From Burkholderia cepacia (lineage in GTDB: Bacteria; Pseudomonadota; Gammaproteobacteria; Burkholderiales; Burkholderiaceae): a stretch of DNA of 64,000 nt. The translations under genes were made by a program, and so were the position numbers. Position 1 is the first letter of the stretch. Each line of letters opens with the position of its first letter. The notes under the pieces were generated by a model. The model was given only the letters and a program-made list of their open reading frames with translations. It searched no databases and was not told the origin of the DNA. This document shows, one piece after another, positions 34,856-44,913 of this stretch. The DNA lies in assembly GCF_029962485.1 (NCBI RefSeq), contig NZ_CP073637.1, positions 3,348,001-3,412,000 on the forward strand, read 5' to 3'.

Positions 34856-35836
34856 TCAGCCGATCTGCTGCATGATCGAGATCAGCTTTTTCGCGTAGTT
34901 CGGGTCGGTCGCGTAGCCGGCCTTCTGCATCCCGTGCGCGAAGCCTTCGACGCTGCGGCTCGCGCTGAGCACGCCCGAGTAGCGCGGGTTGTTCTTCAGC
35001 AGGTTCGCGTAGTCGGTCATCGCGTGCTCGTACGAGTCGTACGCGCGGAATTTCGCGACCACGCGGCGCGGCGTGCCGTTCACGTATTCGGTCGTCAGCG
35101 CCGACACCGTGCGACCCGTCCAGCCCTTGTTCGCCTTGATGCCGAACACGTTGTAGCTGGTCGACCCGTCGGAGGCGCGGATCTCGCGCTTGCCCCAGCC
35201 CGATTCGAGCGCGGCCTGGCCGACGATGAAGCGCGCCGGGATGCCGGTTGTCGCGCTGGCCGCCTGCGCGGGGCCCGCGAGCCGGTCGACGAACGCGTCG
35301 GCATCCTGCACGCCGCTCGCGCCCTTCAGCGGCGGCGTCAGCGCGCTGCCGGCCGAGTAACCGCGCGCGCCGGCGAGACCGCCATTGTTCGCCGCGTTCG
35401 CATAGGCCTTCGCCATCGCGTTCATCGCGGCGAGGCTGCCTTCGTTGCCGGCCGTGCCGAGGCCACCGGTGCCCATGCCGCCCGCGCCGATGTCGGCCGC
35501 CGTGTCGCTACCCGCGCCCGCGCCGGCGTTGCGCAGCAGCTGTTTCATCAGCGCGTCGGCGACACCCATCCCGCGTGTCGACATTTGCTGCGCAAGCTGC
35601 TGGTCGAGCATCGACGTGTACATCTTCGACGTATGCGAATCGAACAGCCCGCCGTCGGGCGATGCGTCGCGCATGCTCTTGAGCATCATCTGCGTGAACA
35701 TCGCGTCGAACTGGCCGGCGACCGCCTTCGCGCCGGCCTGCGGCGACTGCTTCGCCTGCGCGCGCAGTGCATCGAAACCCTGCACGTCGAGCGCGAAGCG
35801 CTGCGTGAGGTCGTTCGCGTTCGGAAGGTTCGCCAT
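34856..35836 (-). CDS. flgJ: Flagellar rod-assembly protein / peptidoglycan hydrolase
   Basis: This 326-aa two-domain FlgJ has an N-terminal rod-capping domain (residues 1-110, with KSMRDASPDGGLFDSHTSKMYTSMLDQQLAQ). A Gly/Ala-rich linker (about 118-165) leads to the C-terminal glucosaminidase-type domain (about 170-320, FIVGQAALESGWGKREI with the likely catalytic Glu). It caps the growing rod and cuts peptidoglycan. The start is MANLPNAND at 35836. A 287-bp palindromic element fills the gap to flgI and ends immediately at this ATG. There is no ordinary Shine-Dalgarno before the start. Confidence 0.95.
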   Translation of the reverse strand: MANLPNANDLTQRFALDVQGFDALRAQAKQSPQAGAKAVAGQFDAMFTQMMLKSMRDASPDGGLFDSHTSKMYTSMLDQQLAQQMSTRGMGVADALMKQLLRNAGAGAGSDTAADIGAGGMGTGGLGTAGNEGSLAAMNAMAKAYANAANNGGLAGARGYSAGSALTPPLKGASGVQDADAFVDRLAGPAQAASATTGIPARFIVGQAALESGWGKREIRASDGSTSYNVFGIKANKGWTGRTVSALTTEYVNGTPRRVVAKFRAYDSYEHAMTDYANLLKNNPRYSGVLSASRSVEGFAHGMQKAGYATDPNYAKKLISIMQQIG

Positions 35837-36123
35837 AAGGGTCTGCCTACTCATGAAACGTACATGCGTTGCCCCGAGACGGGCCGCTCGCAAGGACTGT
35901 GACGCCGCGAATACTGGACGTATTCGCAAGGAGCGTGACGCAGCGAGCGGCCCGTCTCGGGGCAACCCCAAATTTAAATTGCATTCCACGGGAATGCCCG
36001 AAATCGGCCGCATGGCGGCGTCCTTCGTCTCTTGTTTGGCACGGCCAAACGGCGCCCCTCACTCCTTGCCCTGCGCCCGATTTCGGGCATTCGCATGCAC
36101 GTTTCATGAGTAGGCAGACCCTT
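35837..36123. repeat. Palindromic intergenic element, copy 1 (flgI-flgJ gap)
   Basis: This 287-bp element has a perfect 25-bp terminal inverted repeat (35837-35861 with 36099-36123), extended by CATGCG/CGCATG. Inside are two further stem domains: a perfect 24-bp stem 35868-35891/35943-35966 and a perfect 16-bp stem 35992-36007/36077-36092. Each encloses a small hairpin (GCGAATAC/GTATTCGC at 35907-35927; GTTTGGC/GCCAAAC at 36034-36050). Two 22-bp direct repeats beginning CGCAAGGA (35889-35910 and 35925-35946) overlap the first domain. The right end overlaps the flgI stop codon and the left end abuts the flgJ start. A second copy lies between flgM and flgN. It contains no ORF of its own. Confidence 0.9.
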
Positions 36124-37312
36124 AGATCACCTCCAGGTCGGCGCGCAACGCGCCGGCCGCCTTCATCGCCTGCAGGATCGACATCAGGTCCGCGGGCGTC
36201 GCGCCGAGCGTGTTCAGCGCCTTCACGACGTCGGCGAGGTTCGCGCCGGCCGTCACCATCTTCAGCGCGCCGTTGTCCTGCTTCAGCTGGATCTGCGACT
36301 GCTGCGCCACTACCGTCTGCCCGTTCGAGAACGGCCCCGGCTGCGACACCACCGGCTGCGTATTGACGACGACCGACAGGTTGCCGTGCGCGACCGCGCA
36401 GCTCTGCAGCGTGACCATCTGGTTCATCACGATCGAGCCCGTGCGCGCGTTCAGGATCACCTTCGCCGCGGCCTTGTCCGGGCTCACGTCGAGGTTCTGC
36501 AGCCGCGCCATGAAGGCGACCTGCTGCGCCGAATCGGCCGGCGCCGCGAGCTGGATCGTGCGGCCGTCGAGCGCCGTCGCGGTGCCCGGGCCGAAGCTCG
36601 AGTTGACCGCGGACACGATCCGCTGCGCGGTGCCGTAATCCATGTCGTTCAGCTGCAGCTGCAGCACGCCGTTCATCTGCGCGATCGCGTTCGGCACCGC
36701 GCGCTCGACGATCGCGCCGCCGACGATCCGGCCGGCCGCGAGCTGGTTCACCTGCACGCGGCTGCCGTTCGCGCTGGCGCCCGCGCCGCCGACCGCCATG
36801 TTGCCCTGCGAGAGCGCGTACACCTGCCCGTCCGCGCCCTTCAGCGGCGTGAGCAGCAGCGTGCCGCCGCGCAGGCTCTTCGCGTTGCCGAGCGACGATA
36901 CCGTCACGTCGAGCGCCTCGCCCGGCCGCGCGAACGGCGGCAGCGTGGCCGTCACCATCACGGCCGCGACGTTCTTCAGCTGCATGTTGCTCAGCGACGA
37001 CGGGCCGCCGTTCGCCGAACCGTTGTTGATCGAGATGCCGAGGTTCGCGAGCATGTTCGCGAGCGTCTGCGTCGTGAACGGCGTCTGCATCGTCTGGTCG
37101 CCCGTGCCGTCGAGACCGACGACGAGGCCATAGCCGATCAGCGGGTTGTCGCGCACGCCCTGGATCTGCGCGAGGTCCTTCAGGCGCTCCGCTTGCGCGG
37201 GCGCAGCGCCGAGCGCGCACGCCGCAGCCACGGCCGCGAACGCCACGGCGAGCCGCGCGGCGGCATGCGCACGGGCCGACAGGCGGTGGATCAGGGTCGT
37301 CTGCATCGTCAT
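36122..37312 (-). CDS. flgI: Flagellar P-ring protein
   Basis: This 396-aa periplasmic protein forms the P ring in the peptidoglycan layer around the rod. A long signal peptide ends at AAPAQA near residue 41, then mature [26 protein letters not shown], a FlgI hallmark, followed by GTGDQT and [12 protein letters not shown]. The start ATG overlaps the flgH stop by one base (TGATG). A second in-frame ATG two codons later is also possible. The stop codon lies within the end of the palindromic element. Confidence 0.96.
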
Positions 37313-38001
37313 CACCACGGCGCGATGTTGAGGAAGAAGCGCTGCAGCCAGCCCATCGTCTCGGCTTCGTTGATGTAGCCCTTCGACGAGTATTCGATCT
37401 TCGCGTCGGCGACCTGCGTCGAGTAGACGGAGTTCGCACCCGAGATCGTGTTCGGGTTGACGACCCCCGAGAAGCGCACGAATTCGTTGCCCTGGTTGAT
37501 CAGCATCTGCTTCTCGCCGCTGACCACGAGGTTGCCGTTCGGCAGCACGCCGGTGACCGTCACCGTGATCGTGCCGTTGAACGTATTCGCCGCGCTCGCA
37601 CCGCCGGTCGCCGCGAACTTGTTGTTGCCGCTGGCCGACAGGTTCGCCTTCGCGAACAGCCCGCCGAGGAAGCCGGCCGTCGGCACGTTGAAGTCGGTGT
37701 TGCCCTGCCGGTTGGTGTTGGCGCCCGACGACTTGGTCGCGTTGATGTTCTCCGCGATCATGATCGTCAGGATGTCGCCGATGTTGCGCGGCCGTTGATC
37801 CTCGAAGAGCGGCCGCCCCGCGTAGCCGGGGTTGTAGATCGAGCCGGGCGCCTGCATCGACATCGGCATCGGCGGCTGCGCCGTCATCGGCTGCTGGATG
37901 ATCGGGTCGCGCGGAATCTGCGCGCAACCGGCGAGCGCCGCCACCGCGACCGCGCATGCGGCGCGGACGGGGGCTGACGGGAGGAGGCGAACCTGCTTCA
38001 T
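37312..38001 (-). CDS. flgH: Flagellar L-ring lipoprotein
   Basis: This 229-aa lipoprotein has lipobox LAGCAQIP (Cys near residue 26). Family motifs are [28 protein letters not shown] and [24 protein letters not shown], and it ends [11 protein letters not shown]. It forms the L ring in the outer membrane, on top of FlgI. It lies 21 bp after flgG and overlaps flgI by one base, consistent with L/P-ring co-production. Confidence 0.96.
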
Positions 38002-38022
38002 GGCGACGACGGGACTTTCCGG

Positions 38023-38811
38023 TTAGCTCTTCATCTGCGTGACGGTCTGCAGCATCTGGTCGGACGTCGTCACGGCCTTGCTGTTGATCTCGTAGGCACG
38101 CTGCGTCTGGATCATGTTGACCAGTTCCTGCACGACGTTCACGTTCGACGCTTCGACGTAGTTCTGGTTGAGCACGCCCGCGCCGTTCAGGCCCGGCTGC
38201 GACACGTTCGGCGCGCCCGACGACGTCGTCTCGGAGAACAGGTTCTCGCCGCGCGCCTCGAGGCCGGCCGGGTTGATGAAGGTCGCGATCTGCAGCGCGC
38301 CGATCTGCACCGAATTGGTCGACCCCGCCTGCGTGACCGTCACCACGCCATCCTTGCCGATCGTCAGCGACGTCGCGTTCTGCGGGATCGTGATCGCCGG
38401 CAGGATCTGGTAGCCGCTCGACGTGACGAGCTGGCCCTGCGCGTTGGTCTGGAACGAGCCGTCGCGCGTGTACGCGTTCGTGCCGTCCGGCATCACCACC
38501 TGGAAGAAGCCCGCGCCGTTGATCGCGACGTCCTTCGAGTTGCCGGTCTGCGTGAGGCCGCCCTGCGTGTACAGGCGCTCGGTCGCAACCTGCTGCACGC
38601 CGGTGCCGAGCTGCAGGCCCGACGGCAGCTCGGTCTGCTGCGTCGAGTTCGCGCCGGGCTGGCGAATGGTCTGGTACAGCAGATCCTCGAACACCGCGCG
38701 CGACGCCTTGAAGCCGTTCGTGCTGGTGTTCGCGAGGTTGTTCGAAATCACGTCCATCTGCGCCTGCTGCGCATTCATGCCGGTGGCGGCGATGTAGAGC
38801 GAACGGTTCAC
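38023..38811 (-). CDS. flgG: Flagellar distal rod protein
   Basis: This 262-aa axial protein begins [20 protein letters not shown] and has the rod signature [16 protein letters not shown] near residue 25. Its C-terminal flagellar basal-body domain is [22 protein letters not shown] with the terminal coiled coil. Length equals typical FlgG (about 260). It forms the distal rod joined to the hook. It is in the flgBCDEFGHIJ operon between flgF and flgH. Confidence 0.97.
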
Positions 38812-38845
38812 TTGTCGATTCTCCTGCGTAAGCTGGCGTGGGCGC

Positions 38846-39604
38846 TCAGCTGAAGTTGAGCAGCTGGTTCGCCGACTGCTCGTTCTGGTCGGCCGTCTGG
38901 ATCAGCTTCGACTGAAGCTGGAACGCGCGCGCGTTGTCGATCATCGCGACCATCGCGGTCACCGGGTTGACGTTGCTGCCTTCGAGCGAATTCGGCGTGA
39001 CGACCACGTTCGGGTCGGCGTCGGCCGGATTGCCGTCGGCGGTGCGGAACAGCCCGTCGTTGCCGCGCGCGAGCGTGGCCGGATCGGGATTGACGAGCTT
39101 CATCTGGTCGACGATCGCAACGGCCGTCGGCGGGTCGCCCGGCATCAGCGCGGAAACGGTGCCGTCCTTGCCGATCGTCACTTCCGCGTTCGGCGGCACC
39201 GAGATCGGGCCGCCGTTGCCGATCACCGGCAGGTTGCTCGCGTTGACGAGCTGGCCGTTCTCGTCGACGTGCAGGTTGCCGGCGCGCGTGTACGCCTCGC
39301 TGCCGTCGGCCGCCTGCACCGACAGCCAGCCCGCACCCTGCACGGCAACGTCGAGCGGGTTGCCGGTGCGCGTGATCGGACCCGGTGCGTAATCCGCGCC
39401 GGGCGTCGACGCGAGCACGTAGGTACGCGTCGTCGTCGGGTCGATCGCGCTGCCGTCGCCGAAATTCATCGGCACCGCGCGATACGTCGCGAGCTGCGCG
39501 CGAAAGCCCGTCGTCGACGTGTTCGCGAGGTTGTTCGCGACGATCGCCTGCTGGTCGAGCGACTGCGACGCGCCCGTCATCGCCGTGTAGATCAGTCGGT
39601 CCAT
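38846..39604 (-). CDS. flgF: Flagellar proximal rod protein
   Basis: This 252-aa axial rod protein begins [20 protein letters not shown]. It has the signature [17 protein letters not shown] and the C-terminal [25 protein letters not shown] helix. Its size matches FlgF (about 250). It is 34 bp upstream of flgG and is exported by the flagellar type III system. Confidence 0.96.
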
Positions 39605-39623
39605 GGCTGCCGGTTATCCGCGC

Positions 39624-40868
39624 TTACAGGTTGATGAGCGTCTGGTCGACGGTCTGCTGCGTCTTGATCGTCTGCGCGTTCGCCTGGTAGTTGCGCTGCG
39701 CGGTGATCAGGTTGACGAGCTGCGACGTGAGGTCGACGTTCGAGTTTTCGAGCGCGCTGCCCTGCAGCGTGCCGTGGTTCGTGCTGCCCGGCGCGGAGAC
39801 CTGCGGCACGCCCGATGCGGCGGTTTCCGCATACTGGTTGCCGCCGAGGTTCACCAGCCCGTTCGGGTTGTTGAAGTTCGCCAGCGCGATCTCGCCGAGC
39901 ACGGCGGTCTGGCCGTTCGAGTAGTTGCCGGTCAGCTTGCCGTCGGCGCCGATCGAATAGGTCGTCAGCGTGCCGCTCGCGAAACCGTTCTGCGCGAGGT
40001 TGTTCACGCCGTCCTTGCCGCCGTACTGCGTGGTGCCGGTCAGGTCGAGCACGAGGTCCTGCGGCGTCGCCGAGCCGTCGGTGTTCGGCACGGTGAACTG
40101 GAACTGGCCGAGCGACGCGGTCGGCGCCGGCGGCGTGCCCGTCGTCGTGCTCTTGATCGCGCCCGACGTATCGAACGTGACCGTGCCGAGATCGGTCGCC
40201 TTGGCCGCGCCCTGCACGCCCGCGTACGCTTCCCACGTGCCGGATGCCGACTTCACGAAATACATGTTGACCGCCTGCGAACCGCCCAGCGAGTCGTACA
40301 CCTGGATCGACGTCGAGTAGTTGTACGTCGTGTTGTCGTTCGGGTCGAACGGCGTCTTGGTCGGCACCGTGTCCTGCGAGTTCAGGTTGAACTGGCCGGT
40401 GATCTTGGTCGTCGCGGTCGGCGCGATGTTGGTCGTCGGCGCCTGCAGCGGCACGGTCTGCGCGGTGTTGATCACGCCGCCCGCGTTGGCTGCATAGCCC
40501 ATCAGGTTGCGGCCTTGCGAGTCGACGATGTAGCCGTTCTTGTCGCGCTGGAACGTGCCGTCGCGCGAGTACGTCGTCACGCCGTTGTTCGACATCTGGA
40601 AGAAGCCGTTGCCGTTGATCGCGACGTCGAGCGACGAGTTCGTCGTATTGATCGTGCCCTGACCGAACTGCTGCTGCACCGACCCGAGCGACGTGCCGAT
40701 GCCGATCTGCGTGTTGACCGAGGTCGCGACCGAGTTCGCGTACATGTCGGAGAACTGCGCGGTGCTCGACTTGAAGCCGACCGTGTTCGCGTTCGCAATG
40801 TTGTTGCCGATCACGTCGAGTGCGTTCGAGGCACCGGCGAGGCCGCTCAGACCCTGTTGATAACCCAT
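39624..40868 (-). CDS. flgE: Flagellar hook protein
   Basis: This 414-aa FlgE begins MGYQQGLSGLAGASNALDVIG and has the signature NNIANANTVGFKSS. Variable D1/D2 domains rich in Thr and Gly follow, and the C-terminal NVDLTSQLVNLITAQRNYQANA coiled coil closes the chain. It polymerises into the hook on the scaffold protein FlgD, encoded directly upstream (27 bp). Confidence 0.97.
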   Translation of the reverse strand: MGYQQGLSGLAGASNALDVIGNNIANANTVGFKSSTAQFSDMYANSVATSVNTQIGIGTSLGSVQQQFGQGTINTTNSSLDVAINGNGFFQMSNNGVTTYSRDGTFQRDKNGYIVDSQGRNLMGYAANAGGVINTAQTVPLQAPTTNIAPTATTKITGQFNLNSQDTVPTKTPFDPNDNTTYNYSTSIQVYDSLGGSQAVNMYFVKSASGTWEAYAGVQGAAKATDLGTVTFDTSGAIKSTTTGTPPAPTASLGQFQFTVPNTDGSATPQDLVLDLTGTTQYGGKDGVNNLAQNGFASGTLTTYSIGADGKLTGNYSNGQTAVLGEIALANFNNPNGLVNLGGNQYAETAASGVPQVSAPGSTNHGTLQGSALENSNVDLTSQLVNLITAQRNYQANAQTIKTQQTVDQTLINL

Positions 40869-40895
40869 TTCGGTCTCCGTTTCGAGAAAGCTCGA

Positions 40896-41645
40896 TCAGT
40901 TGGTGGTGGTGTCGCCGGTCGTGGACGACGTCTTGACGTTCGGGAAGATCGACGCGACCTGGGTGAGCCCCACCGTCGTACCGTTCGACAGCACCAGGCC
41001 CGCCGTGCCGTCCGCCTGCTTGATCACGCTCTGCACCGTTGCGGCCGCCAGCACGGTCGGCGCGTATGCCTTGCCGTCGGTGCCCGTGTACTGCGCGCTG
41101 ACCGTGTACGCGCCGTCCGGCAGCGCGTTGCCGGCCGCGTCGGTCGGCGTCCAGTTGAACGGGACGGTGCCGGCCGACTGCTTGCCCGCGTTGATCGTGT
41201 TGACGACGACGCCCGAGCTGTTCTTCACGGTGATCGTCAGGTTCGACACGTCGCTCGTGAGCGACACGCCGAACGGCGACGCCGCGCCGCTCTTCACCGC
41301 GACCGAGTTGCCCGGCGCGAGCACGTTCGTGCCGATCAGCAGCGCGGCCTGCGTCTGCTGGCCGGCCGTGAGCTGCGTCGACAGCGACGTCAGCGACGTG
41401 TTCAGCTGCGCGATGCCGCTCACCGTGTTGATCTGCGCGAGCTGCGACGTCATCTGCGAGCTGTCGACCGGGCTCGTCGGATCCTGGTTCTGCAGCTGCG
41501 TGACGAGCAGCTTCAGGAACGTCGCCTGCAGGTCGCTCGCCGACGTGCCGTTGGTCGACGACACGTTGTTGGTGTTCATCGTGTCGGTCGGCAGGGTCGA
41601 CACGTTCGTGCCGTTGCTGCCGATCGTCGTGCTGGAGGAAGTCAT
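40896..41645 (-). CDS. flgD: Flagellar hook-capping scaffold protein
   Basis: This 249-aa FlgD has the N-terminal motif FLKLLVTQLQNQDPTSPVDSSQMTSQLAQI at about residues 45-75. FlgD FlgD-Ig/Tudor-like domains follow (VSLTSDVSNLTITVKNSSG, VPFNWTPTDAAGNALPDGAYTVSA). It caps the growing hook and is discarded when FlgK joins. It lies between flgC (43 bp) and flgE. Confidence 0.95.
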   Translation of the reverse strand: MTSSSTTIGSNGTNVSTLPTDTMNTNNVSSTNGTSASDLQATFLKLLVTQLQNQDPTSPVDSSQMTSQLAQINTVSGIAQLNTSLTSLSTQLTAGQQTQAALLIGTNVLAPGNSVAVKSGAASPFGVSLTSDVSNLTITVKNSSGVVVNTINAGKQSAGTVPFNWTPTDAAGNALPDGAYTVSAQYTGTDGKAYAPTVLAAATVQSVIKQADGTAGLVLSNGTTVGLTQVASIFPNVKTSSTTGDTTTN

Positions 41646-41688
41646 CCTGGGTGGCCTTCTGTCGTGGTCTGTGAGGTCGGCGCGCGGC

Positions 41689-42114
41689 TTACGAGCCGAT
41701 CGTCAACGTCTTGAGCATCAGCGTCTTCGCGGTGTTCAGCGTTTCGACGTTGGCCTGGTACGAGCGCGACGCCGAGATCATGTTCACCATCTCCTGCACC
41801 GGATCGACGTTCGGCATCTGCACGTAGCCGTTCGCGTCGGCCGACGGGTTCGCAGGGTCGTAGGTCGACTTCATCGGCGACGGGTCGTCCATCACCTTCG
41901 TCACGCGCACGCCGCCCACGCCCTGGCCGGACGCGGTGCGCGCGCCGCCGATCGGGTCGGTCGCGAACACGACCTGCTTGGCCTTGTACGGCTTGCCGTC
42001 GGGGCCGGTGGCGCTGTCGGCGTTCGCGAGGTTCGACGCGGTGACGTTCAGGCGCTGCGATTGCGCGGACAGCGCCGAACCGGCGACGCCGAAGATGTTC
42101 ATCAACGAAGGCAT
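41689..42114 (-). CDS. flgC: Flagellar proximal rod protein
   Basis: This 141-aa protein begins [20 protein letters not shown]. It has the rod signature [18 protein letters not shown] and C-terminal [23 protein letters not shown]. Length matches FlgC (about 135-140). It is the second gene of the flgB operon, 37 bp after flgB. Confidence 0.96.
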
Positions 42115-42151
42115 GGTGGCTCCTGGTGCTTGTGCTCGGGTTCGGTTGCGC

Positions 42152-42640
42152 TTACGAGTTCGTCGAGATCGCGGCGATCATCGCCTTGATCTGCTGGGTC
42201 ATCACGGTCATCCCGGATTCGTAGTGCAGCGCGTTGTTCGCGAACTGCACGCGCTCGACGTCGAGATCGACCGTGTTGCCGTCGAGCGACGGTTGCAGCG
42301 GCATCCGGTACTGCGCACGGCCGTAGTCGTCCGACGGGCCGCCGGTCGGGATCAGCTTCGCGGTGCCGGCCATGTGACCGGCCGCCGTCGACACCATCGA
42401 CATGCCGCTCGTCACGCCGGCCGGCTGCGCCATCGGCAGCTGCGCGGCGTTGCTCGGCGCCAGGCCGCCGCCCGTCTGCTTCAGCGAGCGCGCGAGCGTC
42501 GACGCGAAATCGACGTCACGGGCCTGGTAGCCGGGCGTGTCGGCGTTCGCGATGTTCGACGACAGCAGTTCCTGCCGGTAGGCGCGCACGTCGAGCGCCT
42601 GTCGGCCGAACGCGAATTCCGCATCGAGTTTGTCCAGCAT
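42152..42640 (-). CDS. flgB: Flagellar proximal rod protein, first gene of the basal-body operon
   Basis: This 162-aa protein begins [23 protein letters not shown] and carries the signature [22 protein letters not shown], ending with an axial helix. FlgB is one of the first rod subunits built on the MS ring and FliE. The start at 42640 matches family length. A longer frame upstream into the promoter region was rejected. It is divergent from flgA across a 204-bp regulatory gap. Confidence 0.96.
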
Positions 42641-42748
42641 GTGTGCGTCTCTCCGTATGAAGCGCTGCACGCCCCTCGCGCCGGATGGCGACCCGAGAGG
42701 CTTTTTTCCATGACAGCGATGGTAGGCGTCGGACGCAACCGGCAATCG

Positions 42749-42784
42749 GGCGAATAACGCGGCAAAGGCCCCCTCTATTCATCG
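42749..42784. promoter_or_regulatory. Possible FlhDC box in the flgB-flgA divergent region
   Basis: GAATA (42752-42756) and TATTC (42776-42780) form a spaced inverted repeat within GCGAATAACG and CTATTCATCG. These resemble the AATA-core half-sites of FlhD4C2 boxes. The position, between the divergent class-2 genes flgB and flgA, is where FlhDC acts in related bacteria. Half-site match is partial. Confidence 0.35.
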
Positions 42785-42844
42785 TTTGCGCGGCGGCCCG
42801 GCTCCCTAGAATGCGAATCGGATCAACGGATCGAGGACACGGCG

Positions 42845-44107
42845 ATGACTGGCAGCGCACTTCGCGGAAGGAACGGGCGGCTCACGCACGTCCGGCGTGC
42901 GTTTGCGCCTGCAGTTGCACTCGCTGCGGCGCTGTGGATCGCCGCACCGGCCGCACACGCGGAAGACGGGATGATCGTGATTCCCGGACGCGGCGAGACG
43001 GCCGAAACCGCGCTCGCGCACGCCAATGCGGCGAACGGCGGGCAGTTCGGCGGGCAGTTCGGCGGGCAGTTCGGCGGGAATGCGGGGATCGCTTCGGGTG
43101 CGGGCATCGCGCCGGAGGCGGGCCGTGCTGCTTCGGCGGCAGGGGCCGCGACCGGCTACGCAGCGCAACCGGCCGGCGCGATGGTCGTGACGACCGTGCC
43201 GCCCCCGGCGCCCGCGCCGTCGCCCGTTCGTGCAGCCGCTCGCGTGAACGCCGGCTACGTCGCGCAGCCGCGCGCTGCCGACCCGAGCGCCATCGCGACG
43301 GTCGTCGCCGGCACGGCCGAGCCTGCATCGAATTCCGTTCGGCCGGCGCAACCGTCGGCCGCCGCCGCGCGCCTTGCTGCGGCCCGCGCCGCGTCGGCCG
43401 CACCGGCGCCGCGCGCAGCGGCAGTTTCCGCGAATCCGGCCGCGTCCCCGGCTGCCGTCGCGGCCCAGCCCGCGACGCCGCCCGGCCAGCAGGATCCCGA
43501 GACGATCCGCCGCGCAGCCCTCGCGTTCCTGCAGCAGCAGATCGCCGGCCTGCCCGGCAAGACCACCGCGACGGTCACGACCGCGTTTCCCCGCGGGCTC
43601 GCCGCGTGCACGACGCTCGAGCCGTTCCTGCCGACCGGCGCGCGCCTGTGGGGCCGCACGACGGTCGGCGTGCGCTGCGCGGGCGAGCGGCCGTGGACCG
43701 TCTACCTGCAGGCGAAGGTCGCCGTGCAGGCCACCTATTACGTCGCCGCGCGCCAGATCGCGCCCGGCGAGCCGCTCTCCGCGGCCGACCTGGTCGCCCG
43801 CGACGGCGACCTGACGGTCATGCCGCTGGCGGTGATCACCGATCCGGCGCAGGCGATCGGCTCGACCGCGCTCGCGCGCATCTCGGCCGGCCTGCCGCTG
43901 CGGCAGGACCTGCTGAAAAGCGCGGCGTCGGTGTCGGCCGGTCAGACGGTGCGGGTCGTCGCGGCCGGGCCCGGCTTCACGATTTCGGCCGAGGGCAGCG
44001 TGCTCGCGAATGCGGCACCGGGCCAGTCGGTGCGGGTGCGGATGGCGGCGGGCCAGATCGTCACGGCGATCGTCAAGGACGCCGGCACCGTGGAAATTCC
44101 GCTATAG
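42845..44107 (+). CDS. flgA: Flagellar P-ring assembly chaperone FlgA with long N-terminal extension
   Basis: This 420-aa periplasmic chaperone helps FlgI form the P ring. Its signal peptide ends at AAHA near residue 39. About 150 residues of Ala/Pro/Gly-rich sequence follow, including three tandem GGQF units coded by 12-bp repeats (43037-43072). The conserved FlgA/SAF region is C-terminal: LPGKTTATVTTAFPRGLAACT, then VAARQIAPGEPLSAADLVARDGDL, then GLPLRQDLLKSAASVSAGQTV and the final AGQIVTAIVKDAGTVEIPL. E. coli FlgA is about 220 aa, so this arm roughly doubles the length; a similar arm is common in Burkholderia. It is transcribed divergently from flgB. Confidence 0.94.
   Translation: MTGSALRGRNGRLTHVRRAFAPAVALAAALWIAAPAAHAEDGMIVIPGRGETAETALAHANAANGGQFGGQFGGQFGGNAGIASGAGIAPEAGRAASAAGAATGYAAQPAGAMVVTTVPPPAPAPSPVRAAARVNAGYVAQPRAADPSAIATVVAGTAEPASNSVRPAQPSAAAARLAAARAASAAPAPRAAAVSANPAASPAAVAAQPATPPGQQDPETIRRAALAFLQQQIAGLPGKTTATVTTAFPRGLAACTTLEPFLPTGARLWGRTTVGVRCAGERPWTVYLQAKVAVQATYYVAARQIAPGEPLSAADLVARDGDLTVMPLAVITDPAQAIGSTALARISAGLPLRQDLLKSAASVSAGQTVRVVAAGPGFTISAEGSVLANAAPGQSVRVRMAAGQIVTAIVKDAGTVEIPL
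43037..43078 (+). repeat. 12-bp tandem repeat within flgA
   Basis: Three full copies of GGCGGGCAGTTC (43037-43072) plus half a copy encode (GGQF)3GG in the disordered arm of FlgA. Copy number is likely variable between strains because the unit is in frame. Confidence 0.85.
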
Positions 44108-44170
44108 GGACGGATTCAGCAGCAAGAGTGTAAAGAATTGTTTATTCGGAGCATTTCGGGTTCGCGGTGC

Positions 44171-44197
44171 TAAAGTTCGGGCCGACCCGGCCGTTAT
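44171..44197 (+). promoter_or_regulatory. Sigma-28 (FliA) promoter for flgM
   Basis: TAAA (44171-44174) and GCCGTTAT (44190-44197) are separated by exactly 15 bp, as in the FliA consensus TAAA-N15-GCCGATAA. The flgM GTG start is 28 bp downstream. FliA-driven flgM gives the usual negative feedback loop on FliA. Confidence 0.85.
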
Positions 44198-44225
44198 CTG
44201 GGTCAAACCGTACAGGAAACCCATC

Positions 44226-44555
44226 GTGAAAATCGATTCCACTCCGAACCCGAGCCCCTTGGCGCCGACCGGCAACGGCGCGTCCCGTGCGCAATCCGGC
44301 ACGGCCCAATCGTCCGCGCAGGCGGCCGACGCCGGATCGACCGGCGGCGACACGACCGTGAACCTGTCGGGTCTGTCCGGCCAGCTGCGTTCGGTATCCG
44401 CGTCGGGCGACGCCGATATCGACACCGGCCTTGTCCAGTCGATCAAGGACGCGCTGAACAACGGCACGTTGACGATCGACGCGAACAAGATTGCCGACGG
44501 CGTATTGAATACCGCCCGCGAGCTGCTGCAACAGCAGCGCCCGCAGGGTAACTAA
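44226..44555 (+). CDS. flgM: Anti-sigma-28 factor
   Basis: This 109-aa protein begins at a GTG (VKIDSTPNPSPLAPTGN, read as Met). The disordered N-terminal half (about residues 1-45) is Ser/Ala/Thr-rich and precedes the FliA-binding helices DIDTGLVQSIKDALNNGTLTI and ANKIADGVLNTARELLQQ. FlgM holds FliA inactive until the hook is finished, then is exported through the flagellum. A FliA promoter lies just upstream. The second palindromic element follows, separating it from flgN. Confidence 0.95.
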   Translation: MKIDSTPNPSPLAPTGNGASRAQSGTAQSSAQAADAGSTGGDTTVNLSGLSGQLRSVSASGDADIDTGLVQSIKDALNNGTLTIDANKIADGVLNTARELLQQQRPQGN

Positions 44556-44563
44556 GCCGGCCC

Positions 44564-44852
44564 AGGGCCTGCTTACGCTAATAACGGGCTTGCGCTGGCC
44601 ACCAGAAGGGCCGAGCGCAAGGATTGCGACGAAGCGAATACTCGACGTATTCGCAAGGAGTATGACGCAGCGATCGGCCCTTCTGGTGGCCAGCCCCACA
44701 AAGGATTTTTTCCAATCAGGGGAACGAGCCTTGCCGGCCGCATTGCGGCGTCGCGCGTCGCTTGTTTGGCTCGGCCAAACGGCGCTCCTTGCTTCTTGCA
44801 CTGCGGCCGGCAAGGCTCGTTCGCAAGCCCGTTATTAGCGTAAGCAGGCCCT
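44564..44852. repeat. Palindromic intergenic element, copy 2 (flgM-flgN gap)
   Basis: This 289-bp element has a perfect 31-bp terminal inverted repeat (44564-44594 with 44822-44852). Its architecture is the same as copy 1. The first domain stem is 44595-44614/44674-44693 (20 bp perfect, then one mismatch and 3 bp), and the second is 44722-44742/44802-44822 (21 bp perfect). The two inner hairpins GCGAATAC/GTATTCGC (44634-44654) and GTTTGGC/GCCAAAC (44764-44780) are identical in their stems to copy 1. Direct repeats beginning CGCAAGGA are at 44616-44637 and 44652-44673. Stem sequences differ from copy 1 but stay complementary. It starts 8 bp after the flgM stop and ends 61 bp before flgN. Confidence 0.9.
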
Positions 44853-44913
44853 AGCCGGCTCCACCGGTTTGCCGGCGCGCGCCACCGCGTACCGGCGCGA
44901 CGAGCATGACGCG

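Follow-up and report, generated by a model that had tools for sequence, protein, structure and literature searches.

A probable REPIN/MITE-like mobile palindrome in Burkholderia whose stems vary and yet stay paired

The ERIC/IRU-type palindromes of enterobacteria are short intergenic palindromic repeats without a gene of their own, IS200/IS605 elements make no target duplication, and elements of the IS5 or IS630 type duplicate a 4-bp CTAG or a 2-bp TA target. A palindromic element that invites comparison with these systems occurs twice, as copies D and E, in the window analysed here, i.e. the whole 64,000-nucleotide stretch at positions 3,348,001 to 3,412,000 of contig NZ_CP073637.1 from Burkholderia cepacia (assembly GCF_029962485.1). 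REPINs are extragenic and non-autonomous, with inverted arms that form one long hairpin and in which compensatory changes are common, and their excision has been observed in population sequencing (PMC3116915). For TnpAREP, the AG of a 5' tetranucleotide GTAG has been proposed to choose the CT cleavage site, and in IS200/IS605 elements, whose ends have secondary structure, the adjoining tetranucleotide is chosen by base pairing (PMC8266576). Template switching has been reported to create and repair hairpins (PMC8794818; PMC7202029), and is a documented route for two arms to change together (PMC8794818). The Burkholderia element moves: sites that it occupies lie empty in relatives. Its three stems vary and yet remain approximately 99% paired, at fixed sites as well, and outside one column they show no preference for wobble mismatches. 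There is no direct target duplication as a rule, and the best-resolved insertions lie at NNAG/CTNN, mostly CTAG, with complementary end tetramers. The element is probably a non-autonomous mobile DNA palindrome, REPIN/MITE-like (MITE, miniature inverted-repeat transposable element), that is kept palindromic by self-templated copying.

The family comprises elements of about 285-320 nt that are almost fully self-complementary, with outer arms forming two subfamilies, I (AGGGTCTGTTTACATATGGAACGCGCATGCG) and II (AGGGCCTGTTCACGCTAATAACGGGCTTGCG). No published description of it was recognised in the literature searched, a search outside which most subscription-only papers lay. Both window copies contain two long stem-loops and a small hairpin at the centre, closed off by an outer stem of about 31 bp, and the termini of copy D read AGGG...CCCT. 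Folded as single-stranded DNA, copy D reaches -115.9 kcal/mol (z -15.6) and copy E -128.4 kcal/mol (z -17.0), and for each copy none of 200 dinucleotide shuffles folded as well. The features of the two copies, in window coordinates, are as follows.

35838..36122, plus strand: copy D, subfamily I, lying between the stop codon of flgI and the start codon of flgJ (minus-strand genes)
35836..35839, plus strand: D end tetramer TAAG, the reverse complement of CTTA at the opposite end
36121..36124, plus strand: D end tetramer CTTA
35838..35868, plus strand: D outer stem, left arm
36092..36122, plus strand: D outer stem, right arm, with one A.C mismatch to the left arm (unpaired in the fold)
35868..35966, plus strand: D domain 1, a 24-bp stem around the GCGAATAC...GTATTCGC hairpin (35907-35927), with two CGCAAGGA repeats
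35991..36093, plus strand: D domain 2, a stem around the GTTTGGC...GCCAAAC hairpin (36034-36050)
44564..44852, plus strand: copy E, subfamily II, 3' of the stop codon (44553-44555) of a plus-strand gene
44562..44565, plus strand: E end tetramer CCAG
44851..44854, plus strand: E end tetramer CTAG
44564..44594, plus strand: E outer stem, left arm, 31 bp, perfect
44822..44852, plus strand: E outer stem, right arm
44594..44694, plus strand: E domain 1, a stem around GCGAATAC...GTATTCGC (44634-44654)
44722..44822, plus strand: E domain 2, a stem around GTTTGGC...GCCAAAC (44764-44780)

The names flgI and flgJ are taken from the first-pass annotation, an earlier note made from the sequence alone, and the gene upstream of copy E is presumably flgM, by position. 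Copy D sits between the stop codon of the upstream gene (36124-36122, minus strand) and the ATG of the next gene (35836-35834, minus strand); within 35834-36124 the insertion spares both, and 285 bp of hairpin now lie between the downstream gene and the sequence that formerly preceded it. The first-pass annotation described the outer stems as perfectly complementary, which is true of E (31 bp, no mismatch) and not of D, with its one A.C mismatch, whereas the two hairpins and the two CGCAAGGA repeats per copy that it named are real in both copies. Its statement that the outer stems of D and E differ completely is correct for these two as a pair, which look unrelated because they belong to different subfamilies, and does not extend to the members of each subfamily, among which the arms are similar and covary. 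The possibility that domains 1 and 2 are inverted copies of one unit was rejected, with local alignment scores of 17 and 18 against shuffled means of 16.5 and 17.4.

The site of copy D is empty in 28 of 28 aligned relatives, in which TAA is followed directly by ATG on the minus strand, and it is also filled in one relative, G040; against the relatives, the filled site has one further codon less and one base changed. Each of the copies A, B, C, E, F, G, H and I of the genome that carries the window (the host genome) has an empty counterpart in at least one relative. In the reverse direction, 11 sites are filled in the same-species genome G057, and the host genome is empty at six of these (L318, L320, L321, L322, L323 and L330, the last holding a 43-nt derivative in G057), carries a remnant or shortened form at three (L316, L325 and L326) and has two unplaced (L314 and L319).

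At several sites the earlier state can be read from relatives. At L321, CTAG stands in all eight relatives' rows (one with extra bases) and the filled site reads CTAG[...]CTAG; at L318, relatives have CGAG (7/11), CGAA (two), CCAG (one) or, in the host genome, TGAG, and the filled site reads TGAG[...]CTCA; at L320, they have TCAG (3/5), TCGG (one) or CCAG (one), and the filled site reads TTAG[...]CTAA. Among the sites of genome G053, L284 has CTAG in three of three relatives, L289 has CGAG in the one relative aligned where the filled site reads TTAG...CTAA, and L274, L278, L285 and L288 are diverged. Insertion beside a tetranucleotide without duplication, as in IS200/IS605-type elements, fits L318, L320, L321 and L284, and fits D with extra changes; it does not cleanly fit L322 or the other eight host-genome copies named above. 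Across 141 distinct sites, the end tetramers are CTAG/CTAG in 32, other reverse complements of the form NNAG...CTNN in 36 (24 of them TTAG/CTAA) and neither in 73; the 32 CTAG/CTAG sites cannot tell a direct from an inverted repeat, and non-palindromic direct tetramer repeats were found at 0/141 sites. Given this absence and the earlier states of the sites, ordinary direct duplication is excluded as the rule. A scan of 100 copies also went against a direct duplication of 3-9 bp, its two small excesses (7/100 and 5/100) falling in windows that reach into the element ends. At the same 141 sites, the left AG is preceded by CT in 54 and by TT in 31, against a background of 4% each. The outer two end bases are complementary in 75 of 151 copies (shuffle mean 33, maximum of 2000 shuffles 49), and pairing ends at position -2, where 63/100 copies are paired against 40 expected, position -3 being paired in 21/100 against 26 expected.

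These end states bear on two other explanations. A DDE-transposase MITE that targets a short palindrome, duplicating either CTAG or TA, would account for the sites with CTAG at both ends and for the empty CTAG at L321, L330 and L284, and a CTAG-bounded insertion sequence (IS) with a 380-aa open frame touches copies in L062, L281 and L304. We consider this origin unlikely, since complementary tetramers occur at 36 sites and non-palindromic direct ones at none, the relatives mostly have CGAG at L318 and TCAG at L320, i.e. no TA and no direct duplication, and the IS ends (CAGGCTGTTGAAA) are unlike those of the element; the earlier states of L318 and L320 rule out TA or CTAG duplication alone. Alternatively, the complementary tetramers may have arisen after insertion through template switching that matches the arms, in which case they are uninformative on the insertion step. 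The reported creation and repair of hairpins by template switching (PMC8794818; PMC7202029) is in keeping with such an origin, as are L320 and L289, where TTAG...CTAA stands opposite TCAG (3/5) or CGAG (1/1) in relatives; against it, pairing stops sharply at the fourth base, whereas random extension should fade. We consider such an origin less likely than not.

Covariation was counted on sets of 100-154 copies, all picked by the exact-core pattern and then filtered for intact stems. In an alignment of 100 full copies, paired cells number 3030/3100 in the outer stem, 1988/2000 in the domain-1 stem and 1584/1600 in the domain-2 stem, and many stem columns are split between different Watson-Crick pairs. 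With one copy per orthologous site, 3269/3300 stem cells are Watson-Crick in subfamily I (50 copies) and 4591/4648 in subfamily II (73 copies); the domain-stem counts cover the outer 20 and 15 pairs, picked after the inner ends proved unpaired. When arms were shuffled among copies within a subfamily, the means were 92.4% (I) and 90.9% (II) and the best of 500 shuffles 93.3% and 91.3%, and the observed paired double changes, 139 (I) and 213 (II), compare with shuffle maxima of 40 and 36; the shuffles ignore relatedness and are therefore a guide rather than a probability. Pairing thus exceeds all 500 shuffles in both subfamilies, which bears out the covariation around a conserved core that the first-pass annotation described from two copies. 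The degree of pairing is somewhat overstated because the filter drops copies (12/120 listed loci; 3/154): 108 of the 120 listed loci pass the intact-outer-stem filter (103 kept and five dropped for want of an anchor) and 12 fail. Ten of the 12 were read, and of these two are cut off by the end of their extracted sequence, one (Rhodoferax) has no element and seven are truncated, shortened or diverged. Copies with damaged arms therefore exist as a minority of the core-selected set.

Strong covariation is commonly taken to prove a functional RNA. Selection on an RNA made from one strand should make G-U pairs, seen as G-T on that strand, exceed A-C. Among 123 copies (one per site) the stem mismatches are 48 G-T, 23 A-C and 17 other (p 0.004), with a single outer-stem column, outer24, having G-T in 18/123 copies; without this column the counts are 30, 22 and 17 (p 0.33). 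All 151 copies give 59 G-T, 32 A-C and 21 other, or 35, 31 and 21 (p 0.71) without outer24. One exceptional column aside, we read the mismatch spectrum as giving a strand-specific RNA no support. A family of structured non-coding RNA genes that spread through duplication, with stems kept by selection on the folded RNA, would explain the strong covariation, the conserved loops and the G-T pairs of outer24. It is nevertheless very unlikely, given that G-T and A-C are not clearly different outside that column, that G-T makes up only about 0.6% of stem cells (48/7948), that the six Rfam matches all lie below the gathering score, that the empty sites behave in a transposon-like manner and that opposite orientations occur at the same site. 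The covariation here, without a general wobble signal and in a mobile DNA repeat, makes the family a natural test bed for separating selection on RNA structure from self-templating at the DNA level.

Changes in place were followed in 17 groups of orthologous sites obtained by flank comparison, with exact duplicates removed, some G057 loci being the same DNA twice in the locus set. In 2718 comparisons among orthologous members, 44 stem pairs had both bases changed and yet remained paired (20 transitions and 24 transversions), 56 differed on one side (26 G-T, 19 A-C and 11 other) and one differed otherwise; comparisons made inside one group depend on one another, and 23 of the 44 double changes come from a single group of five members. 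The occurrence of 44 paired double changes beside 56 single ones at fixed sites indicates that the arms follow each other and are rewritten in place. At two sites the orientation of the element is opposite between species, L067/L156 (flanks 97% and 94% identical) and L131/L047 (flanks 81% and 87% identical), as expected from an exchange of arms or from independent insertions. Ectopic gene conversion among copies could move both arms together and so mimic double changes in place, and many copies of one genome are 72-90% alike, while orthologous copies sometimes differ in domain content (289 versus 316 nt; 291 versus 196 nt). It is rather doubtful as the explanation, as the group L103/L259/L302 is readable as a mismatch step in one arm leading to a new paired state. 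The joint change of both arms through DNA replication, with no wobble step, is shared with the hairpins maintained by template switching in PMC8794818; the cases there are RNA genes, whereas here the hairpin is a mobile DNA repeat and the wobble test speaks against RNA.

The preference of the first-pass annotation for a DNA-level element over a strand-specific RNA is accordingly upheld by the empty sites, the lack of a wobble skew outside one column and the joint arm changes; a cruciform function is no more than a possibility. Its argument from the orientation of D and E is weak, in that orientation differs among copies and, at the two sites above, between species.

Several observations weigh against a mobile palindrome that inserts at a tetramer. 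Of the nine host-genome copies with an empty relative, only D approaches a clean tetramer insertion; at the sites of A, B, C, E, F, G, H and I no such insertion is seen, some having lost or changed several target bases and several being diverged. At L322, eight of nine relatives have CTGGGG where the filled site reads TCAG[...]CTGA, with one base less, and at the 73 of 141 sites counted above the ends are neither complementary nor repeated. Some of the "empty" sites may be later losses, since the L318 and L321 sites are filled in other species (L152, L048 and L148). Lastly, G-T does exceed A-C when outer24 is counted (48 versus 23, p 0.004), a wobble signal at that pair.

Among described systems, the element works most like REPINs, yet lacks two of their defining features, a cognate RAYT and the GTAG tag. 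As in REPINs, inverted arms fold into one hairpin that is extragenic and mobile; the differences are a length of about 285 nt, two inner domains and 0-21 exact-core copies per genome, together with the absence of a cognate Y1 (RAYT) gene or of any sign of an active Y1 in the host genome. A 5' GTAG or GGAG tag is not the rule, each being the left tetramer at 2/141 sites, with ends mostly CTAG and TTAG. A MITE of a DDE transposase would share the terminal inverted repeats and differ in its direct target site duplication, which is not found here. A possible likeness of the subfamily I ends to those of Tn3 was set aside. The ERIC/IRU repeats are likewise short, intergenic, palindromic and without a gene; the element is set apart from them, without sequence comparison, by its size and by three stems around conserved unpaired cores. 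The NNAG...CTNN ends parallel the AG/CT cleavage logic proposed for TnpAREP (PMC8266576). Non-autonomous derivatives of IS200/IS605 resemble the element in their structured ends and, as far as its best-resolved sites go, in their adjacent tetranucleotide (PMC8266576), with the differences that here a single palindrome spans the entire element, its two end tetramers are able to pair together and Y1 does not track the element.

The exact core is present in 42 of 65 Burkholderia genomes; the host genome (7.70 Mb, three contigs) has about 14 copies in all, full and partial, and its derivatives of the element are short ones only. A scan of public genomes for the exact core gave at least 120 loci, the matches listed being 102 in Burkholderia, 14 in Paraburkholderia, three in Trinickia and one in Rhodoferax, the last with no element around the core. 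Seven plasmid or chromid records add Caballeronia and one partial match in Cupriavidus, and in 7/7 no annotated gene lies beneath the best match (the gene table being incomplete). A phage origin was rejected, the phage collection having yielded no match for copy E.

No mobilising enzyme was found in the two families tried, Y1 transposases and reverse transcriptases, neither of which tracks the element. The IS200-type family PF01797 (Y1_Tnp) matches 64 of the 65 genomes, mostly through one borderline common gene and whether the core is present or absent; strong matches are confined to few genomes and bear no relation to copy number, and G053, with 21 copies, has only the weak common match. Against a cut-off of 23 bits, the single match in the host genome reaches 22.9 (23.2 when its neighbours are included), or 21.3 when the translated protein is scored, and its HUH motif reads QVQ, where an active-looking member elsewhere has HVH (both judged by eye). 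RVT_1 is present in 19 of 20 chosen genomes, with and without the element, and was not informative. No second pair of arms was found around a gene at the 120 listed loci (8 kb or less, up to six mismatches), whole genomes not having been scanned in this way. The Y1/RAYT-like protein with the degenerate HUH, at G000:C1:365263-365976 (L375 2764-3477), seems to be conserved in nearly every genome of the genus, those without the element included, and is perhaps a domesticated, inactive transposase. The 380-aa-frame IS lies at about 440-1802 in L062, and the CTAG beside it doubles as an element end.

For a mobile palindrome of this kind, the mobile or replicating form would be folded single-stranded or cruciform DNA, the arms would be matched by self-templated synthesis (template switching) with one arm templating the other, and a trans-acting enzyme would work on the folded form and make the insertions. 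These steps can be joined, speculatively and with a low expectation that the whole is correct, in a scheme in which the folded single strand joins a target strand, the free 3' end copies the first four target bases to give an inverted target duplication, and snap-back synthesis renews one arm from the other and so halts decay of the palindrome; the enzyme in this scheme would belong neither to the Y1 transposases nor to the known reverse transcriptases. Should the inverted tetramer be made during insertion, this would be an insertion chemistry for which we know of no described match.

Copies also vary in their inner parts. Copies of about 196-204 nt (L049, L062, L079, L129 and others) are without domain 1 and have outer arms that still pair, L079 being without domain 1 at a site where L068 has it. 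Derivatives of 43 nt, consisting of the left arm and CCCTNN, occur at two sites, G000:C1:3229712 and L330, and are consistent with deletion between GGCC repeats; the first of these sites holds a 140-nt form in G057 (L326). An extra hairpin of the GTCCCC..GGGGAC type is found in domain 2, adjoining the GTTTGGC hairpin in L013 (copy C, about 1699-1726) and further 3' in L071, L082, L105 and L124, and in L020 it replaces the GTTTGGC hairpin; the 313-320 lengths of other copies may have the same cause. Domain 1 is forward in 136 of 154 copies, inverted in none and without its motif in 18, so that inversion as a common event was rejected; the single case of an inverted domain 1 within a copy, L060, lies outside this set. 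In L080, the right end of the element leads into the apparent start of a second copy, with CCCTAGGG in common.

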